Source: Daucus carota subsp. sativus (lineage: Eukaryota; Streptophyta; Magnoliopsida; Apiales; Apiaceae). From it: 64,000 bases of DNA. The notes beneath the pieces are model-generated. The model was not told the origin of the DNA. It saw only the letters and a list, made by a program, of their open reading frames with translations, and did not search any database. The position numbers and the translations under genes were made by a program. Location: the NCBI RefSeq assembly GCF_001625215.2, contig NC_030385.2, positions 3,403,135 through 3,467,134 on the forward strand. Direction: 5' to 3'. Positions 8,515 to 64,000 of this stretch are shown in pieces (position 1 is the stretch's first letter; the number at the start of each line of letters is the position of its first letter).

Positions 8515-9260
8515 TTACTTGGAAGTTTTACCCTTCCTCTTCTCCAAGTAGAAGAAACCAGCCAACGACACAACAGCGAAAACAGAGAAGCACACGGATG
8601 CAATATCAAGCGACGCATGGCGACCTGTGATGGCCTCTACCTCAAACAAATTAGTTTTCTTGGCAGCATCAGTGGCCTGGCCATAGGCAACTTCTTTATC
8701 CTTTGTGTCGAAAACATAAGCCCTCACAAAGTATGTTGCTGAGGGGATGTCCCTTTCTATAGTCCAAGTGAAGGTATTCGTTGAGGGACTGTAAGGCCTC
8801 GATACAATCTTGTGTTGGCAGGTTCTGTCCTTGTTGAGCTCATCTTTTGTTTTGCGCCAAGGACGATTTTCTTGACTGATGGGAGCGTAACAGAGCTTTA
8901 CCTTGACAGTCTTGTATGCCGAATCTGTTCCAGCTGGGAAGGTTTTGTTAAAAGACCATGTCACCGTGATGTTTTTCTCCCCGGCTTTTAAGACTGCAAC
9001 AAATTATTAAAAATTCATTCTATTATGAGAAAATTACACCAAATTATAGTATTTTAGAAATTTTTTTAGCAAAGTATCTACGCGAAAATACTATGGAACA
9101 TTAATATGTGAATCTGTTTTGAAGTACCTTGTCCGGCTTTTGGTGATGACGTGACAAGAAGAGAATTTTGCAGTGCAGAGAAGGTTCCGTTGGCATAGCA
9201 ATTCAAGGCGAGGAAAGAAAGCGAGATGACAGCCAGAAACAGAATTGTTGGGAGCCCCAT
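8515..9260 (-). CDS. NRT3.1: NRT3.1/NAR2-like high-affinity nitrate transporter accessory protein, copy 1
   Basis: NRT3 (NAR2) proteins bind NRT2 carriers at the plasma membrane and are needed for high-affinity nitrate uptake. Two exons, 9128-9260 and 8515-8993, are joined by a 134-bp GT-AG intron in phase 1 and give 203 residues (Arabidopsis NRT3.1 is 210). An N-terminal signal peptide (MGLPTILFLAVISLSFLALN) is followed by a luminal/apoplastic domain with the family blocks VKVKLCYAPISQ, RPWRKTKDEL, DRTCQHKI, WTIERDIPSATYFVRAYVFD and EVAYGQATDAAKKTNLF. A C-terminal membrane helix (SVCFSVFAVVSLAGFFYLEK) and a basic tail close the protein. It is the first of three tandem genes. Exon 2 differs from copy 2 at one residue in about 150, so duplication or conversion is recent. 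A TATA box lies 82 bp upstream, and a second, orphan promoter copy about 0.85 kb further upstream. Confidence 0.95.
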
Positions 9261-11335: not shown

Positions 11336-11348
11336 TTCGTAAATGTCT

Positions 11349-11612
11349 AGGTTGTGTTCACTTGGAATGAATGAAATGAGAATAAAATAGAATGAAAAAT
11401 TTATAAAAAAATTTTATGGAGAAAGAACAAAGTATGAGATATTAGTTATCAAATATGAGGGAGACTAAATTTTCTATGATGAAGATTGTAGTGAAACATG
11501 ATGAAAACGTGGAATGAACGTTCAAATATCCAAAACATGTGAGTTTAGGTATTTAGTTCAAATATTTTGGAATGGAATGATTAGAGAAATGAAAATTGTA
11601 GAGATTTTTTTA
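11349..11612. mobile_element. MITE with AGGTTGTGTTCACTTGG end, truncated
   Basis: The left end and interior match the complete element at 49809-50140. The right inverted repeat is missing. It sits between the NRT3 exon relic and a partial NRT3 upstream repeat, so it entered the array after duplication. Confidence 0.65.
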
Positions 11613-12808: not shown

Positions 12809-13564
12809 TTACTTGGAAGTTTTACCCTTCCTCTTCTCCAAGTAGAAGAAACCAGCCAACGACACAATCGCGAAAACAGAGAAGCACACGGATGCAATAT
12901 CAAGCGACGCATGGCGACCTGTGATGGCCTCTACCTCAAACAAATTAGTTTTCTTGGCAGCATCAGTGGCCTGGCCATAGGCAACTTCTTTATCCTTTGT
13001 GTCGAAAACATAAGCCCTTACAAAGTATGTCGCGGAGGGAATGTCTCTTTCTATAGTCCAAGTGAAGGTATTCGTTGAGGGACTGTAGGGCCTTGACACA
13101 ATCTTGTGTTGGCAGGTTCTGTCCTTGTTAAGCTCATCTTTTGTTTTGCGCCAAGGACGATTTTCTTGGCTGATGGGAGCGTAACAGAGCTTTACCTTGA
13201 CAGTCTTGTATGCCGAGTCTGTTCCAGCTGGGAAGGTTTTGTTAAAAGACCATGTCACTGTGATATTTTTCTCCCCGGCTTTTAAGACTGCAACAAATTA
13301 TTAATAACATTCATTTTATTAAGACAAAATCACACCAAATTATACGGTAGTATTATATAGAATTTTTCCCTGGAAGCAAAAATATTTTAGCAAAGTATCT
13401 AAGCAAAATTGGAAAATCTGCTTTTAAGTACCTTGTCCGGCTTTTGGTGATGATGTGACAAGAAGACCATTTTGCAGTGCAGAGAAGGTTCCGTTGGCAT
13501 AGCAACTAAAGGCGAGGGAGGAAAGCGAGATGAAGGCCAAAAACAGAATTGTTGGGAGCCCCAT
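12809..13564 (-). CDS. NRT3.1: NRT3.1/NAR2-like nitrate transporter accessory protein, copy 2
   Basis: Exons 13432-13564 and 12809-13287 (144-bp phase-1 intron) encode 203 residues. The layout is that of copy 1: signal peptide (MGLPTILFLAFISLSSLAFS), a cysteine-containing extracellular domain with VKVKLCYAPISQ and RPWRKTKDEL, and a C-terminal membrane helix (SVCFSVFAIVSLAGFFYLEK). The mature part is almost identical to copy 1, while most differences lie in the signal peptide. The start was chosen at MGLPTI, matching copy 1, rather than an in-frame upstream ATG at 13663 that would sit upstream of the TATA box. The TATA box lies about 82 bp upstream. The full upstream repeat follows at 13611-14510. 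Confidence 0.95.
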
Positions 13565-16649: not shown

Positions 16650-17371
16650 TCACTTTTGCATGGAACTTCCTGCCTTTCTTTTCTCCAAGTAGAAGAAACC
16701 AGCCAAAGAAACAATGGCAAAAACAGAGAAACACACGGATGCAACATCGAGGGACGCATGGCGGCCTGTGATGGCCTCTACCTCGAACAAATGACTCTTT
16801 TTCGCGGCATCAGTGGCTTGGCCATAGGCAACTTCTTTATCCTCTGCGTCGAAAACATAAGCCCTTACAAAGTATGTTGCTGAGGGGATGTCTCTTTCTA
16901 TAGTCCAAGTGAAGGTATTTGTTGAGGGACTGTATGGCCTTGACACAATCTTGTGTTGGCATGTTCTGTCCTTCTTAAGCTCGTCTTTTGTTTTGCGCCA
17001 TGCACGATCTTCTTGGCTTATGGGAGCGTAGCAGAGCTTTACCTTGACGGTCTTGTATGTCGAATCTGTTCCAGCTTGGAAGGTTTTGTTGAAAGACCAT
17101 GTCACTGTGATGTTCGCCTCCCCGGCTTTTAGGACTGCAGTCCAATTTAACAAACAAATAACAAATTCATTTATTATTTTCTTGAAAGCGAGAAAATATT
17201 AACAAAAATGTACTAATTACCAAGTAAGAAATACATACCGTGCCCGGCTTTAGGCGATGATGTGACAAGAAGAGATTTTTCTAAAGCAGAGAAGGTTCCG
17301 CTAGCATAGCAACTCAAGGCGAAGGAGGAAAGCAAGATTGAAGCTACAAAGAGAATAGCTGAGAGCCCCAT
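16650..17371 (-). CDS. NRT3.1: NRT3.1/NAR2-like nitrate transporter accessory protein, copy 3
   Basis: Exons 17239-17371 and 16650-17134 (104-bp phase-1 intron) encode 205 residues. The signal peptide is MGLSAILFVASILLSSFALS. The core keeps VKVKLCYAPISQ, AWRKTKDELKKDRTCQHKI and WTIERDIPSATYFVRAYVFD, then the C-terminal membrane helix. The basic tail differs from copies 1 and 2 (KAGSSMQK instead of GKTSK). It is the most diverged of the three and so the oldest split. All expected family blocks are present, and the gene looks functional. A TATA box lies about 84 bp upstream. Confidence 0.95.
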
Positions 17372-41202: not shown

Positions 41203-41274
41203 TGAACCTGACGTGAATCGAACACGCAACCTTCTGATCTGGAGTCAGACGCGCTACCATTGCGCCACAGATCC
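41203..41274 (-). tRNA. tRNA-Trp (CCA)
   Basis: 72 nt fold as a complete cloverleaf on the minus strand. The acceptor 5' half is GGATCTG, the D-loop GGCGCAATGGTAGCGC, the anticodon loop ACTCCAGA with CCA, and the T arm GTTCGATTC. There is no intron and no encoded CCA tail. It matches the plant nuclear tRNA-Trp consensus. A T-rich stretch follows on the minus strand. Confidence 0.96.
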
Positions 41275-49808: not shown

Positions 49809-50140
49809 AGGTTGTGTTCACTTGGATGGAATGGAATGAGGGGAGAATGGAATGAAAAATTATATAGAAATTTTATGGAGAAAGAAGAAAGTATGAGCTA
49901 ATAGTGACTAAATATGAATGAGTTAAATTTTTTTGTGATTAAGATTGTAAAGAAATATGATGTAGAGATGGAATGAGCATTCCTTCCAAAACATGTGGGG
50001 TAGAATTCTAGTTAAAATAGTATGAATGGAATGATTGAAGGAATGAAAATTGTATACATTTTGTTAGATCAACACCATTTTTGAGTACAAAATTCATTCC
50101 ATTCTCCCTCCATTCCATTCACTCCAAGTGAACACAACCT
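49809..50140. mobile_element. MITE with AGGTTGTGTTCACTTGG inverted ends
   Basis: The left end AGGTTGTGTTCACTTGGATG mirrors the right CACTCCAAGTGAACACAACCT. 332 bp, no coding; superfamily not determined. A truncated copy is at 11349-11612. Confidence 0.8.
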
Positions 50141-51176
50141 AAGAGTAATCATACATGCAAACGTTAAACATGTCTCATCAGCCTATACACATTTATATAA
50201 TCTAAAACTTTTATACACGGGAGGACTTGGCTATGATGTACGGAAAAAGGATGGCAGAATTTCAAGAGCTTCAGAGGCAGCTGCTAAACTACCGCCCCCA
50301 ACAAGTGACGTCGACCAACTAACTCAGTCATTTGCAAACAAATGGTTACACTATCTGCTAAGAATTTTTGCATTGAATAGCTAGGCAGGATCAATTCGTA
50401 CAAAGAGACGGTGACAAAAAGTAAAAATATACTAATGTTTTATGAATCATAGGTGCACACACCATTGGTCGCTCTCATTGCCCTTCATTCAGTAACAGAC
50501 TGTACAGTTACAACACGACAACAGTGCAAGACCCGAGCCTAGATTTGTCATATGCAGGGTAGCTAAAGCAGCAATGTCCAGAGGGAAGTACAGATGCTAA
50601 TTTGGTGGTACCAATAAACCCTTCCAAGTTCCAGCCCAGCATCAACTGATGTAGATTACTACACTGATGTTCTGTTTAATATTTTCTCATGTTCTAAGAG
50701 GGGTTTACTTCATTGTTCGAAAGAAAATTAAGGAGGATCCATATAAGCAATCCTCACAGTACTGTAGGGATGGCAGGAAAAACCGATCCGAATGGATACC
50801 CGACCGTTTCGACCCGAATGGATCTTACCGAACTTATAAAAAGTACTGTGACAGTACTTTTATAAGTTCGACCGTCTTGCCTAGAGCTTTGAAGCGGCCT
50901 GGACAGATGCGTGTGTATCTTAATTGGAGACCAAGTATTGTCACATATTACATACTGTATGCTTATTAGCAACTGATAAAAATTGTGGGAATTCGGAAGT
51001 AACATGAAACAAAACCTAAGTGCATCACTAATCATTTTTTATATGGAAATGACTGAAATCCAACAAAACCAGAAAAATGTGCCATGCAATAAGAATTGAA
51101 AATCATTAATAGGCGGTTCATAAATAAAAAACTCATCACAAGTGACCAATTGTTCCCGAAAGGACCAAGATCCTAC
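50141..51176. other. intergenic DNA with a 42-bp palindrome
   Basis: No gene is seen. GTAGGGATGGCAGGAAAAAC at 50763 resembles a hAT-type end, and the palindrome 50829-50870 lies in the same piece. Confidence 0.35.
50829..50870. repeat. 42-bp near-perfect palindrome
   Basis: The left arm CGAACTTATAAAAAGTACTG and the right arm CAGTACTTTTATAAGTTCG are inverse copies (one extra A on the left) with almost no loop. Confidence 0.85.
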
Positions 51177-52045
51177 CTAGGCAGTGAGTTCCATGATAGC
51201 ACTGACTATGTCACCATCATGGGTCTTGATAGCAGTGACGGCCTTGTTTCTTGATACCCCTGCTAGTGTCATGACCAGCTCGATATCAATGGGACTCAGT
51301 ACATCAGTTTCTGTCTCTGTTTCATCATATTCAGAGCCGAAGGTGTTTGAAACACGAATAGGTTTAAGTCCCGCTAGTCCTACTGGTGCAGTTGTTTTGT
51401 TGCATCTCTCGGTTCTTGAAACACGAATAGCTTTTGTAGATGCTTGAATGTTTTTAAGTTCGACATACATCCACAAGCGGTACTGCAACTTCTTCTGTGT
51501 CATTATATCCATAAGATCATTCTCGTCTGTCATGGTAATCTCCTCCTCATCTTCATCAATATACGACATCTTGAGTTCTGTGTACCTCGGCAAATCAAAG
51601 ATATAAGTGATCATGTCTCTCAAATTATCCATATTCGTGTTTAAATTCCCATCAAATATCGGCACACTCAACCGCTTCAGTGTCTTCCCAAATTTAATCT
51701 GCAATTAACATAAATCATTACAAGGTCAATTTAAATTTAATACGAAATACTTAACATAATATAATAATTAGTCGAACGAACCTTGAACAAGAATGTATGA
51801 GGCGATTCATCAGATTTAAGTTCTGCATGATCGTTCTCCTCATACTTAATAGTTGGCTCAGGCTCGGGTTCGGGTCTGGTTTCGGGCTCTGACTCCCCCG
51901 TAGAGGAGTAAGTAATGCAGAAGACATAAGCACACAAAAACCATAAGAGTATGAAGTTAGCAAGAAAACTAACTGTGGTGATCAGGGCCAAAATCATGAT
52001 GGAGACTACAGAATTTTTCAAAGAGTTTAATTCTGTGGTCGTCAT
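51177..52045 (-). CDS. membrane-anchored PB1 protein with NAC-alpha-type UBA domain, copy A
   Basis: Exon 1 (51782-52045) and exon 2 (51177-51698), phase 0 over an 83-bp GT-AG intron, give 261 residues. Residues about 13-45 form one long hydrophobic segment (VSIMILALITTVSFLANFIL onward), then an E/P-rich linker. Residues about 84-170 look like a PB1 domain: basic first strand (FLFKIKFGKTLKRLSV) and the acidic OPCA-type motif YIDEDEEEITMTDENDL (134-150), so it could bind PB1 partners by both faces. Residues about 220-261 (SPIDIELVMTLAGVSRNKAV, then GDIVSAIMELTA at the very end) match the UBA domain of the nascent-polypeptide-associated complex alpha subunit, with its acidic DETETE linker. Copies B and C lack this and end DDWLLT. 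The combination is unknown to me; function is unknown. The exon-2 start is set by the splice acceptor. Confidence 0.85.
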
Positions 52046-53131
52046 TATATGTGCATTATGAGTGTTTTAATAACATCTAATCCCTATATATGGATATCCT
52101 GTACTATGAGGTTTCCTATACTATATTGGTCAAGGATTTCTAATCTGTTTTTGAAACCAATTCTGCTAAGCCTTCTCCGAATATAAATTGGAATTAATCA
52201 TAAAAACTGTTTTATTAGAAAAAGAATTAAAAAAGTTGTTTTTGCAAAATAAGGACTTGCTTTCAGAAAATATTGCATATTTATGTAATTTTTTTTAAAT
52301 AAGTGTTTATGGAGTGTTCGGCGTTCTTAATTTTGAAAAATAATTACTTATTTCCAGAAAAAGATTGCATATTTATTTACGAGTAATGCAATTATGTGGC
52401 AGACATGTAGAACCAATCAGGCATTGTCAACTAGATTTGGGGAAAAAGATTTGGGGACGTTTTGGGCTGCCTAGTATTTTCCTTTATTTAGTCCTTTCTT
52501 TTTAGAAAAAATACTTATATTAAATCTGCTTTTTGATCTCATCTTAAGGTTTGAGTTCATATGCTGGTATTTCTAATTCTGCATTGATTTATCTGCATAT
52601 TTGAAGCCCTAATTGCTTAGAGGTTCACAATTACACTTATGCCAAAATATTTATGAATGTTTTTTGGTGCTGCAGCAAAAGAAAGAAAGATGGTTGCATC
52701 TGCAATTGGAGAGCTGGATGAGACTGGGATCGTGTTGTGTATCCAATGGGTAAAATCCAAAACCAACATGAATTTAGGATCGTGTACCAAAAACATAAAC
52801 TCAAACACTGAAATTTTTGTGTCGTTCATTTGTGTCGTGTGTCTGAAATTGTCGGGTCTAAATTCAAACTCTTCATAGAGTAGAGTACGATTACTCTAGC
52901 AGAATTTTGTCATTCAACATGTGTTTCATTAGATTCTGTAATGAGCCAGCCGCCATAATTAGTACAGTCAAGCAGCAGCAGCAGAAAATTATCCAAAGAT
53001 TAGTTAAATTAAATATTCATTCCATTCTAGAAATTCAGAGATCCAAAAAAATAAAAATAAAAATTTGAATACTAAGAAAAGCTGCACCAAGCTAATTACT
53101 AAAGAACATAGGTATGAGAACATGCCCTGAA
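52046..53131. other. spacer between PB1 copies A and B
   Basis: The upstream 300 bp or so (52046-52340) closely match the region upstream of copy B (53881-54180). 52840-53131 match the region downstream of copy C (54540-54823). Both therefore belong to the tandem duplication, with a repeat period of about 1835 bp. No further gene is seen. Confidence 0.6.
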
Positions 53132-53880
53132 TCAAGTAAGTAACCAGTCATCCATCTCGAATTCTGGAGTGTTGGTAGGTTTTGAATTACAGATAGGTTC
53201 AAGTCCTGCTAGTCCTACTGGTGCAGTTTTTTTGTTCCATTCCTCGGTGCTTGAAACACGAATAGCTTGTGTAGTGGCTTGAATGTTTCTGAGTTCGACA
53301 TACATCCACAAGCGGTACTGCAACTTCTTCTGTGTCATTATATCCATAAGATCATTCTCGTCTGTCATGGTAATCTCCTCCTCGTCTTCATCAATATACG
53401 ACATCTCGAGTTCTGTGTACCTTGGTAAATCAAAGATATAAGTGATCCTGTCTCTCAAATTATCCATATTGGTGTTTAAATTCCCATCAATTATCGACAC
53501 ACTCAACCGCTTCAGTGTCTTCCCAAATTTAATCTGCACGTAACATAAATCATTACAAGGTCAATTTAATTTTAATACGAAAAACGTGACATAATATAAT
53601 AACAAGTCGAACAAACCTTGAACAAGAATGTATGAGGAAATTCATCAGATATAGGTTCTGCATGATCCTTCTCATCATACTTAATAGTTGGCTCAGGCTC
53701 GGGTTCGGGTCTGGTTTCGGGCTCTGACTCCGTAGAGGAGTAAGTAATATGGCAGAAGACATAAGCACACAAAAACCATAAGAGTATGAAGTTAGCAAGA
53801 AAACTAACTGTGGTGATCAGGGCCAAAATCATGATGGAGACTACAGAATTTTTCAAAGATTTTAATTCTGTGGTCGTCAT
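53132..53880 (-). CDS. membrane-anchored PB1 protein, copy B
   Basis: Exons 53617-53880 and 53132-53533 (83-bp intron, phase 0) encode 221 residues. The hydrophobic N-terminal segment, E/P-rich linker (ETRPEPEPEP) and PB1-like domain with YIDEDEEEITMTDENDL are nearly identical to copy A. It diverges after GLAGLEPIC, where it ends with the short acidic/hydrophobic tail EFEMDDWLLT shared with copy C. That tail is probably the ancestral C-terminus. The membrane segment with few preceding charged residues suggests a signal anchor with the PB1 domain in the cytosol (inference). Function is unknown. Confidence 0.83.
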
Positions 53881-54823
53881 AATATATAATTTGATTGCAT
53901 TATGAGTGTTTTAATAACATCTAATCCATATATATAGCCTGTACTATGATGTTTCCTATACTATATTGGTTAAGGATTTCTAATCTGTTTCTGAAACCAA
54001 TTCTGCTAAACCTTCTCCGAATATAAATCGAATTAATCATAAAACATGTTTTCTTAGAAAAAGAATCGAAAAAATTGTTTTCGCCAAAAAAAGACTTGCT
54101 TTCAGAAAAATTGCATATTTATGTAATTTTTTTTTTTGGAAATAAGTGTTTATGGAGTGTCCGGGGTTCTTAATTTTGTAAAATAATTACTTATTTCTAG
54201 AAAAAATGCATATTTATTTACTCCTTCCTTTAAAAAAATACTTATATTAAATCTGCTTTTTGATCTTATCTCAGGGTTTGAGTTCATATATGCTGGTATT
54301 TCTAATTCTGCATTGATTTTATCTGCATATTTGAAGTCCTGATTGCTCGTCTTCCACTAGAGGAAGATTACTCAAGCAGAATTTTGTCATTCAACATGTG
54401 AACCCATATGAAATTAGGATCGTGTCGTGTACCCGATTGGTAAACCAAAAACCGATATGAAATTAGGATCATGTACTTTCGTATCTTGTACTAAAAACGT
54501 AAATACAAACAAGAAATTTTCGTGTCATTCATTTGTGTTGTGTATATACAATTGCCAGGTCTAAATTCAAACTCTTCTTACAGTAGAGGACGATTACTCT
54601 AAAATTTTGTCATTCAACATGTGTTTCATTATATTCTGTAATGATTGAGCCGCGAGAATTAGTACTGTCAAGCAGCAGCAAAATTATCGAAAGATTAGTC
54701 AAATTAAATATTAATTCCATGCTAGAAATTCAGAGATCCAAACGCAAAAAAAAATCTTGCATACTAAGAAAAGCTGCACCAAGCTAATTACTAAAGAACA
54801 TTGGTATGAGGACATGCCCTCAA
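53881..54823. other. spacer between PB1 copies B and C
   Basis: It is homologous to the spacer 52046-53131 at both ends, with additional sequence in the middle (about 54330-54600). No gene is recognised. Confidence 0.55.
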
Positions 54824-55537
54824 TCAAGTAAGTAACCAGTCATCCATCTCGATTTCGGGATGTTCCTGAAACTTTGGAGTGTTGGTAAGTTTTGAAGTAC
54901 AGATAGGTTCAATTCCAGCTCCTCCTCCTACCTGGGAGGTTGCTGGATTGTTGATATCCCTGAAATATAGCTTCAGTTGCTCCGGCTTCTTCGCCATTAC
55001 ATACTGAAGATCACTGTCGTCGGTTATGATCACCAACATACCTTCTTCATCATGACACCGTACATCAAGCTTTGAATAACGTGGTAAGCCAAAGAGGCCG
55101 GTGATCCTGTTTCTCAGTTCATTCATGTCGATGTCAAGAATTCCATTAATTATCGGTACATACCACAGCTTAACTGTCTCTGTTTCCTCATTCATGATCT
55201 GCACAAATCAGAGAAAATAATGGCTTAAATAGAAACACATTGATGATTTGTTGAAGATCTAGTTTGCATAAGACCCTCTTAATTATAATTCAATGAAGCA
55301 GAGAAGAAATATTTATCGTACCTTAATCAAGAAGCGTTCATTAGACTTGGATTCTGCTTTACTACTCGACTCCTGCTCATCAACATGATGATTAGTCTCA
55401 TCATTAGTAGCAGTGGCCTCGTGATCATCGGATTCGGCCATGGAGTCTAAACCCTTCCCCGAAAAGAGAAGGGAACACAATAAAAACAGCAGCAGAAAGT
55501 TAGAAAGAAGAATAAGCGCAGTGAAGAGTTCTAACAT
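54824..55537 (-). CDS. membrane-anchored PB1-like protein, copy C (diverged)
   Basis: Exons 55322-55537 and 54824-55198 (123-bp intron, phase 0) encode 196 residues. It begins directly with a hydrophobic segment (MLELFTALILLSNFLLLFLL), then an acidic linker, then a diverged PB1-like domain (LWYVPIINGILDIDMNELR, LPRYSKLDV, DEEGMLVIITDDSDLQYVM). The tail IEMDDWLLT matches copy B. The intron sits at the same place as in A and B (after FLIK/FLFK), which confirms common origin. It is the oldest split of the three. The acidic motif is weaker (HDEEG in place of DEDEE), so binding capacity may differ. Confidence 0.8.
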
Positions 55538-63018: not shown

Positions 63019-64000
63019 CTATTGACTTGCTAATAAGATCTCCCTCTCGACCTGCTCAAAAATTTCCTTCAATCGATGCTTAAATTTTGTAACGATGTTG
63101 CTTGTTACTCTGTCCTGAAACTTGGTGCTCTTCAGCCACATTACACCAATATACACATCACACTTGCATGATGAAATGGAAAGCTTGGAATTCTCAATCT
63201 CGTACCTCAGTTGAACCTGGGCTCCAAAAAATAGAATCTAATGTTAACTAATTTAGTGGAGGTGAGGAAGTCTACTTCTATTCTAAGCAGGAAGTGAAAG
63301 TAGAGGAAATTGGTCACTGACAACCTTAACAATTTCAATTCATTTATTTTAATATTCACTATTGCAGGAACAACATGCAGAACACCCTGTTAAAGGTACA
63401 ATAGTGAGCCACTTACACGGAAGTAGTCGCCAAAAGGAACGTCATGTAAGACCATACTCTCATTTACAATCCATCCATTAGAAATGGGAGATTTTTGCTG
63501 TGTGCAGGTCACATCTCCTCCGAAGATTGAAACTTGACGGTTGAATTTGAAATACATCCGCCTTTCAAATACATTCGAATTTACTTCTTCCCAACTGGTA
63601 GTTACATAATTCAGACAACCAGATCTTTCCATCACCACATGCTCCATATATCCTCCATCAAATATCTCCATCAATGATTTGACCTGCACCATTGTAAAAA
63701 TTAATCCACAAGATGCATGGTGCATAAATTATAGAATAGTAATCACTAAAGATCTAAAAAAAAATCTAGTTGAAAACATTTACTCCTCGTAGATGCACTT
63801 TGCATTTCTATCTTGCATATTGACAGGAGTATGTACAAGCTGGCATTTATTGCCACTTTCGAGTACGGATGAGGAGCGATCAATTAAAGAGTTAGCAACT
63901 TACATTAACAGGAATTTCTGCAGAGTAGATCTTTGACATCTTCACATCTTCAACGATCGAAGCGAAATCCTCATCAGGAACAGTGGACTTGCCATCTTGT
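63019..64000 (-). CDS. C2/GRAM/VASt-domain protein, C-terminal part (cut by window edge)
   Basis: The last three exons on the minus strand are 63904 to beyond 64000, 63417-63683 and 63019-63216, all phase 0 at the internal junctions. They encode a VASt domain, the lipid/sterol-binding fold found after GRAM domains: VKSLMEIFDGGYMEHVVMER, SGCLNYVTTSWEEV, GDVTCTQQKSPISNGW, VLHDVPFGDYFRVQLRYEIE. A tail KFKHRLKEIFEQVEREILLA resembles that of plant C2-GRAM-VASt proteins (Arabidopsis At1g03370 type). These act at membrane contact sites in related eukaryotes; the plant role is less known. The C2 and GRAM parts would lie beyond 64000. All visible splice sites are GT-AG. Confidence 0.9.

Follow-up and report, generated by a model that had tools for sequence, protein, structure and literature searches.

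NBR1 combines a PB1 domain with ZZ and FW domains and with a UBA domain of its own NBR1 type. The contacts of the NBR1 polymer involve K11, the tandem arginines R19-R20 and the acidic residues D60, D62, D64 and D73, and binding ends without the arginine pair (PMC6978347). For the plant protein Joka2, it is reported that PB1 fragments can form aggregates in planta and that some full-length Joka2 was weakly visible in the nucleus and the cytoplasm when PB1 fragments were co-expressed (PMC3907767). A survey of the PB1 family names eight plant families and describes PB1 together with UBA in protozoan partial NBR1 proteins; the portion of the survey covered here contains no plant family that joins a membrane segment, PB1 and UBA (PMC7051960).

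The UBA domain of NAC-alpha is of another kind. It is reported to represent a common docking arm for several enzymes at the ribosome exit (PMC13356037; PMC12716425). NatB is recruited via NAA25, an overlapping surface serves NatA/E and NatD, and stabilisation of NatB on ribosomes is almost lost with the NAC-alpha variants D205K and V207A/M211A (PMC13356037). NatD contacts the same face of the NAC-alpha UBA as SRP and NatA (PMC12716425).

Here we describe a locus that appears to bring the two kinds of domain together. The window is a stretch of 64 kb from Daucus carota subsp. sativus. It holds three similar two-exon genes on the minus strand, which lie in the order C, B and A along the direction of transcription (Table 1). 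The gene models were derived from sequence alone and contain GT...AG introns of phase 0, located at the same place in all three copies. On these models, copy A is almost certainly an open two-exon gene whose product has a hydrophobic helix near its N-terminus, followed by a PB1 domain of the NBR1 type and a UBA domain of the NAC-alpha type. None of the titles or abstract openings among the matches listed in our literature searches describes a combination of membrane segment, PB1 and NAC-alpha UBA, which is no proof of its absence in print. Among the papers searched, none joined NAC, the UBA domain and gene fusion.

Table 1. Features of the three-copy array, given as positions in the window.
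Feature	Position	Strand	Description
Copy A gene	exons 52045-51782 + 51698-51177	minus	261 residues without stop
Copy B gene	exons 53880-53617 + 53533-53132	minus	221 residues without stop
Copy C gene	exons 55537-55322 + 55198-54824	minus	196 residues without stop
Copy A exon 1	51782..52045	minus	88 residues; hydrophobic stretch at residues 16-34; acidic proline-rich linker
Copy A intron	51699..51781	minus	83 bases, phase 0, GT...AG; also the location of the introns in B and C
Copy A PB1 domain, NBR1-like, start of exon 2	51465..51698	minus	Pfam PF00564, PDB, Foldseek
Copy A acidic linker FGSEYDETETETDVL	51297..51341	minus	from translation; aligns with the acidic stretch preceding the NAC-alpha UBA
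Copy A NAC-alpha-type UBA	51180..51296	minus	stop codon 51177-51179; three helices predicted
Copy A 15-base exact repeat	51416-51430 + 51347-51361 (span 51347..51430)	minus	beside the PB1-UBA junction
Copy B exon 1	53617..53880	minus	gene model
Copy B exon 2	53132..53533	minus	A-like body, C-like DDWLLT tail
Recombination breakpoint in copy B	53200..53203	minus	A-like on the 5' side, C-like on the 3' side
Copy C exon 1	55322..55537	minus	hydrophobic stretch and acidic linker
Copy C exon 2	54824..55198	minus	divergent PB1 and DDWLLT tail; donor type for the tail of B

Elsewhere, the window contains genes with PPR repeats, of the plant family DUF868 and of the NAR2 family, as well as MYB-like and LRR frames recognized by eye. 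Three similar frames lie on the minus strand at 8515-8964, 12809-13258 and 16650-17153, the first two of which differ at 1 of 150 positions including the stop. The frame at 8515-8964, the only one of the three that was scanned, matches NAR2, a family of nitrate-transporter accessory proteins (Pfam PF16974, 1e-53). We also noted a tRNA-Trp (CCA) gene (41203-41274, minus), a frame with a VASt lipid-transfer domain (63390-63725, minus; Pfam PF16016, 1.4e-13) and a fragment that by eye resembles class III peroxidase and is probably a broken copy (50440-50560, plus).

An NBR1-type PB1 domain followed by a NAC-alpha-type UBA

Copies A, B and C each carry one hydrophobic stretch near the N-terminus, an acidic linker and a PB1 domain. 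The hydropathy means over 19 residues were 2.45 for A, 2.45 for B and 2.64 for C. The PB1 domain of A was recognized by PF00564 (2e-6), and the Pfam bit scores of A (28.1) and B (25.9) lay above the cut-off of 23.6, that of C (18.6) below it. Among solved structures in the PDB, Arabidopsis NBR1 was the best match for the PB1 domain of all three copies (A 1.1e-9, B 6.3e-9, C 3.3e-6), and PB1 domains of the ARF, Aux/IAA, kinase or Phox kind were not found at E up to 1 with any of them. An AlphaFold model of copy A based on an alignment of three sequences was weak overall (mean pLDDT 63.6), and its UBA part formed three helices with a pLDDT of 74 to 88 per block of ten residues. With this model, Foldseek ranked the Arabidopsis NBR1 PB1 domain (6tgs) first (5.5e-4, the only rank with E < 0.001) and a chain of the human NAC complex second (2.7e-3). 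PB1 domains of PKC iota, Par6, human NBR1, CDC24, phox and ARF5 followed at lower ranks.

The contacts of the NBR1 polymer have equivalents in A and B, namely K88, K96-R97, D136, D138, E140 and D149, where lysine stands for the first tandem arginine and glutamate for D64. At the same positions, copy C possesses K, K-L, D, E, M and D. The PB1 domain of A has both the OPCA acids and the basic residues that characterize PB1 domains of the A/B type. As most contacts are kept in A and B and some are lost in C, polymerisation may be possible for copies A and B, with a lysine at the first arginine, and less so for C. The PB1 match and the retention of most filament contacts in A and B liken the array to plant NBR1/Joka2. 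In contrast to these proteins, copy A has a UBA from a different family and a hydrophobic helix at the N-terminus, and the ZZ, FW and NBR1-type UBA domains are absent from its Pfam result.

The C-terminus of copy A (51177-51450, minus) reads ...GLAGLKPIRVSNT FGSEYDETETETDVL SPIDIELVMTLAGVSRNKAVTAIKTHDGDIVSAIMELTA-stop, and its last 39 residues are a UBA of the NAC-alpha type. The initial annotation had recognized here the C-terminal UBA end of NAC-alpha including the stop position, and this was borne out by matches far better than chance would give. Pfam PF19026 matched the UBA with 5e-8 and 32.6 bits, above its cut-off of 27. NCBIfam TIGR00264 (NAC) matched copy A with 5.3e-10 and 39.7 bits, which is below the cut-off of 80 that applies to the whole protein. 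The last 52 residues had NAC-alpha as their best match in the PDB (3.7e-8), followed by archaeal NAC (0.0014) and HYPK (0.0055). The NAC-alpha match extends over the acidic linker, and 24 of 35 UBA residues of the matched NAC-alpha chain are kept. D205, V207 and M211 of NAC-alpha are present as D251, V253 and M257, and N208 is replaced by serine.

Copy A resembles NACA in carrying its UBA at the C-terminus after an acidic stretch and in keeping the recruiting residues D205, V207 and M211. It differs in that its Pfam result lacks the NAC barrel, which pairs with NAC-beta, and in possessing a membrane helix and a PB1 domain. HYPK has a related UBA, and the Pfam model that matches copy A is named after HYPK, but the UBA of A matches HYPK more weakly than NACA and HYPK was rejected as the source on this score. 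No NAC domain was detected by hmmscan of the exon 1 and exon 2 frames at E up to 1. Downstream of A, Pfam recognized nothing in the open fragment at 50754-51035 (E up to 0.01), and inspection by eye of three downstream minus frames otherwise identified no NAC remnant. A tblastn search with the UBA of A revealed no second UBA in the window (next best E 3.9). In non-plant collections, the UBA yielded 17 pattern matches in viral contigs and 132 in genome contigs, none of which was confirmed, and plasmids likewise revealed no relative, which is uninformative about the source. A plant NACA motif was found 0 times in the viral contigs and once in the genome contigs, where the translation reads as that of a bacterial protein without relation to NACA.

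The junction between PB1 and UBA lies within a single open exon, exon 2. At the level of the sequence, the proposal of a membrane-PB1-UBA protein stands, with helix, PB1 and UBA all found in copy A. A resemblance to the NBR1/p62 receptors had also been suggested. For the PB1 part this gained strength with Arabidopsis NBR1 as the best solved match. For the UBA part, the analogy to a ubiquitin receptor is weakened because the NAC-alpha UBA reportedly does not bind ubiquitin (PMC13356037).

Probable recombination in copy B and the age of the fusion

Self-comparison of the window matched A with B over 51341-52380 and 53177-54221 at about 92% identity. B and C matched in pieces (B 52483 to 53210, C 54213 to 54920), with a poor match near 52618-52766 in the 3' flank (about 120 columns, 47-55%). 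Apart from this poorly matched stretch, the A-B and the B-C matches run successively along the array. Copy A had been described as sharing everything with B up to GLAGL-PI. The two copies are indeed alike up to GLAGL(K/E)PI, but they are not identical, as 20 of 336 bases differ in exon 2 up to the breakpoint; the aligned exons 2 are 82% identical when the tails are included. The translations agree with the earlier statement that B and C have the DDWLLT tail in common. This C-terminus (53132-53150 in B, 54824-54842 in C) resembles no motif that we could name.

At 138 informative sites of exon 2, the ratio of A-type to C-type bases in copy B is 98:8 up to 53203 and 1:31 from 53200 on. The maximum chi-square of this breakpoint (96.7) was reached in 0 of 2000 shuffles. 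B and C differ at 47 of 414 sites (11%) after the breakpoint and at 147 of 360 sites (41%) before it (p 1.6e-21). Since B and C are alike only past the breakpoint, and the similarity of A and B ends where that of B and C begins, copy B appears to be recombinant. Jukes-Cantor (JC) distances between A and B were 0.062 in exon 2, 0.117 in the intron, 0.077 in the 5' flank and 0.076 in exon 1, the last value being slightly high owing to a gap-free alignment despite one extra codon in each copy. Between B and C, the tail (0.069) and the 3' flank (0.133) were close, in contrast to the part of exon 2 before the breakpoint (0.564) and the intron (0.696). A further flank segment taken end to end had a distance of 0.240 (79.5% identity), its inner part being 90.6% identical.

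Given this pattern of distances, the stretch from the tail of C to the body of B and the stretch from the tail of B to the body of A look as if a single unit had been doubled. Since whatever lies downstream of the last copy is left intact by a tandem duplication, the PB1-UBA junction of A would already have been present. We strongly infer that the junction in B is the new one and that the junction in A pre-existed. Copy B is very probably a hybrid for which C underwent unequal crossing over with an ancestor of A that already bore the UBA, which would make the UBA fusion older than the A/B duplication. One tandem duplication by such crossing over would create B and the order C-B-A; A would retain the older PB1-UBA junction and B would be a product of the anti-Lepore type. 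Like such hybrids, B lies between its two presumed parents and shows a single sharp breakpoint between these neighbours, at matching places of the two.

The initial annotation had envisaged a tandem duplication followed by tail capture. The duplication is retained here. A subsequent capture is not supported, as B appears to be the recombinant and the UBA junction would precede the A/B duplication. In full, that order would require that A and B arose by whole-gene duplication with the DDWLLT tail, that the tail of A was later replaced by the UBA and that the tail and 3' flank of B were converted to a C-like state. A simple count of tails speaks in its favour, as DDWLLT is present in B and C and makes A the odd one out. 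Two events could also account for the somewhat greater divergence of the B-C 3' flank (43/353 sites) compared to the A-B 5' flank (24/327 sites; p 0.039). However, an extra conversion of about 0.7 kb is required, and the point of replacement must fall within some bases of the breakpoint in B, whereas one duplication covers both. We consider this order unlikely.

The two sides of the duplicated unit agree only roughly in age, as judged by the difference between the flanks, which counts against the hybrid origin of B, as do the roughly 120 poorly aligned columns in the B-C 3' flank and the further segment with 79.5% identity. The p value was 0.069 when all A-B non-coding sequence was compared with the B-C 3' flank, 0.85 for the A-B intron versus the B-C 3' flank and 0.77 for exon 2 versus the tail. 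Owing to the unequal divergence of the flanks, we hold the duplication model slightly less firmly than before this comparison; our confidence in it remains high because the alternative order needs an additional conversion and a coincidence of breakpoints.

How the UBA was joined may be recorded beside the junction. A second copy of the 15-base repeat (51347-51361) lies just before the acidic linker, and 0 of 500 codon shuffles of copy A held a repeat of this length. The repeat may represent a scar of the joining of the UBA by template switching. As a sign of retroposition we looked by eye for a poly(A) tract in the 3' flank of A and found none. The 5' flank of A carries an insertion of 102 bases (52381-52482) that is absent at the matching place upstream of B and by eye is flanked by TAAATAAA-like repeats. 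A small mobile element that integrated once the duplication had taken place may account for it.

Similar tandem repeats can be mis-joined in assembly, and the repeats of this array are about 92% identical. An assembly error at the junction of A is nevertheless highly improbable. The UBA follows the PB1 body in frame, and nothing in the sequence past the junction (50000-51340) matches B or C. The only other matches of this sequence in the window (49809-49856, 50829-50870, 11348-11378 and 11551-11612) are short.

Constraint on copy A

We compared A and B segment by segment, using 51465 as the boundary at the end of PB1 for the comparison of sites and of constraint. PB1 contains four synonymous (45 sites) and four non-synonymous changes (189 sites), corresponding to a dN/dS of 0.23 with an uncorrected p of 0.046 in one of six comparisons. 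The linker had a dN/dS of 1.03 (three synonymous and nine non-synonymous changes). Exon 1, in which each copy has one extra codon, showed almost no synonymous change (0.5) against 6.5 non-synonymous ones (p 0.34), too few to call.

The chance of the frame staying open was estimated by a neutral simulation (5000 runs) with a change per lineage of 0.04 or 0.06. The indel rate was derived from non-coding sequence (A-B 5' flank and intron, B-C 3' flank), which has 11 gap runs over 763 bases; half of it was assigned to each lineage, and we assumed that one indel in four is tolerated. The whole frame of A was open in 0.36% or 0.14% of the runs; for the UBA part by itself the figure was 35% or 33%. 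Because the whole frame rarely survives this simulation, A looks kept as a gene. The UBA part alone survives so often under neutrality that there is no sign of selection on the UBA itself, and the pattern of changes in exon 1 and the linker is not that of constraint; both points count against our preferred explanation. They would equally suit a non-functional or unexpressed chimera that is still open through its youth. Such a chimera is doubtful, given the chance of 0.14-0.36% that the whole frame stays open under the stated neutral model and the weak constraint in PB1.

A possible docking arm at the membrane

We tentatively propose that copy A acts as a PB1 subunit tethered to a membrane and equipped with a docking arm of the NAC type. 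Its PB1 would join PB1 chains, of its own kind or of NBR1, from the membrane. The UBA would be a docking arm for NAC-type partners such as N-terminal acetyltransferases or SRP, rather than a reader of ubiquitin. Copy B, having the same anchor and PB1 and no UBA, would join the same chains armless. The charges flanking the helix of A (0 before, -1 after) do not settle whether PB1 and UBA are on the cytosolic side, which speaks against this explanation, as do the lysine at the first tandem arginine, the serine at N208 and the overall weakness of the AlphaFold model. Taken as a whole, with architecture, history and mechanism together, we consider the explanation rather probable.

Alternatively, copy A might be a membrane-bound autophagy receptor whose UBA reads ubiquitin or ATG8 and whose PB1 assembles as in NBR1. 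This would fit the NBR1-type PB1 of A. In addition, the UBA of Nicotiana benthamiana HYPK was reported to be needed for binding of ATG8, and NAC-alpha is on the same ATG8 proximity list as HYPK; the HYPK UBA alone, however, failed to bind ATG8 in the yeast two-hybrid system (PMC6642529). The reported lack of ubiquitin binding by the NAC-alpha UBA (PMC13356037) argues against a receptor as well. Moreover, the pattern W/F/Y-x-x-L/I/V occurs in A at residues 31, 127, 164 and 166 only, confined to the hydrophobic helix and to PB1 or its end. We regard an autophagy receptor as unlikely and a role in ATG8 binding as a weaker rival to the reading of the UBA as a docking arm.

In its most far-reaching form, the docking-arm reading would make copy A a working PB1 scaffold bound to a membrane, whose many exposed NAC-alpha UBA arms gather acetyltransferases, SRP or other ribosome-exit factors at a membrane or at NBR1 bodies, with B as an armless partner made by recombination. 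This is speculative, and we think it improbable.

Thus, the locus would combine domains in a way for which our searches found no description, and its origin would lie in ordinary gene fusion and unequal crossing over. The history proposed here indicates that counting tails among tandem copies can misdirect the reconstruction of a fusion, as the shared tail would be the recombined one. Copy A would represent a NAC arm moved to a membrane-bound, self-assembling domain and may as such serve to test whether the arm works outside NAC. Copy B, which has the anchor and PB1 of A and a different tail, would provide the natural control.
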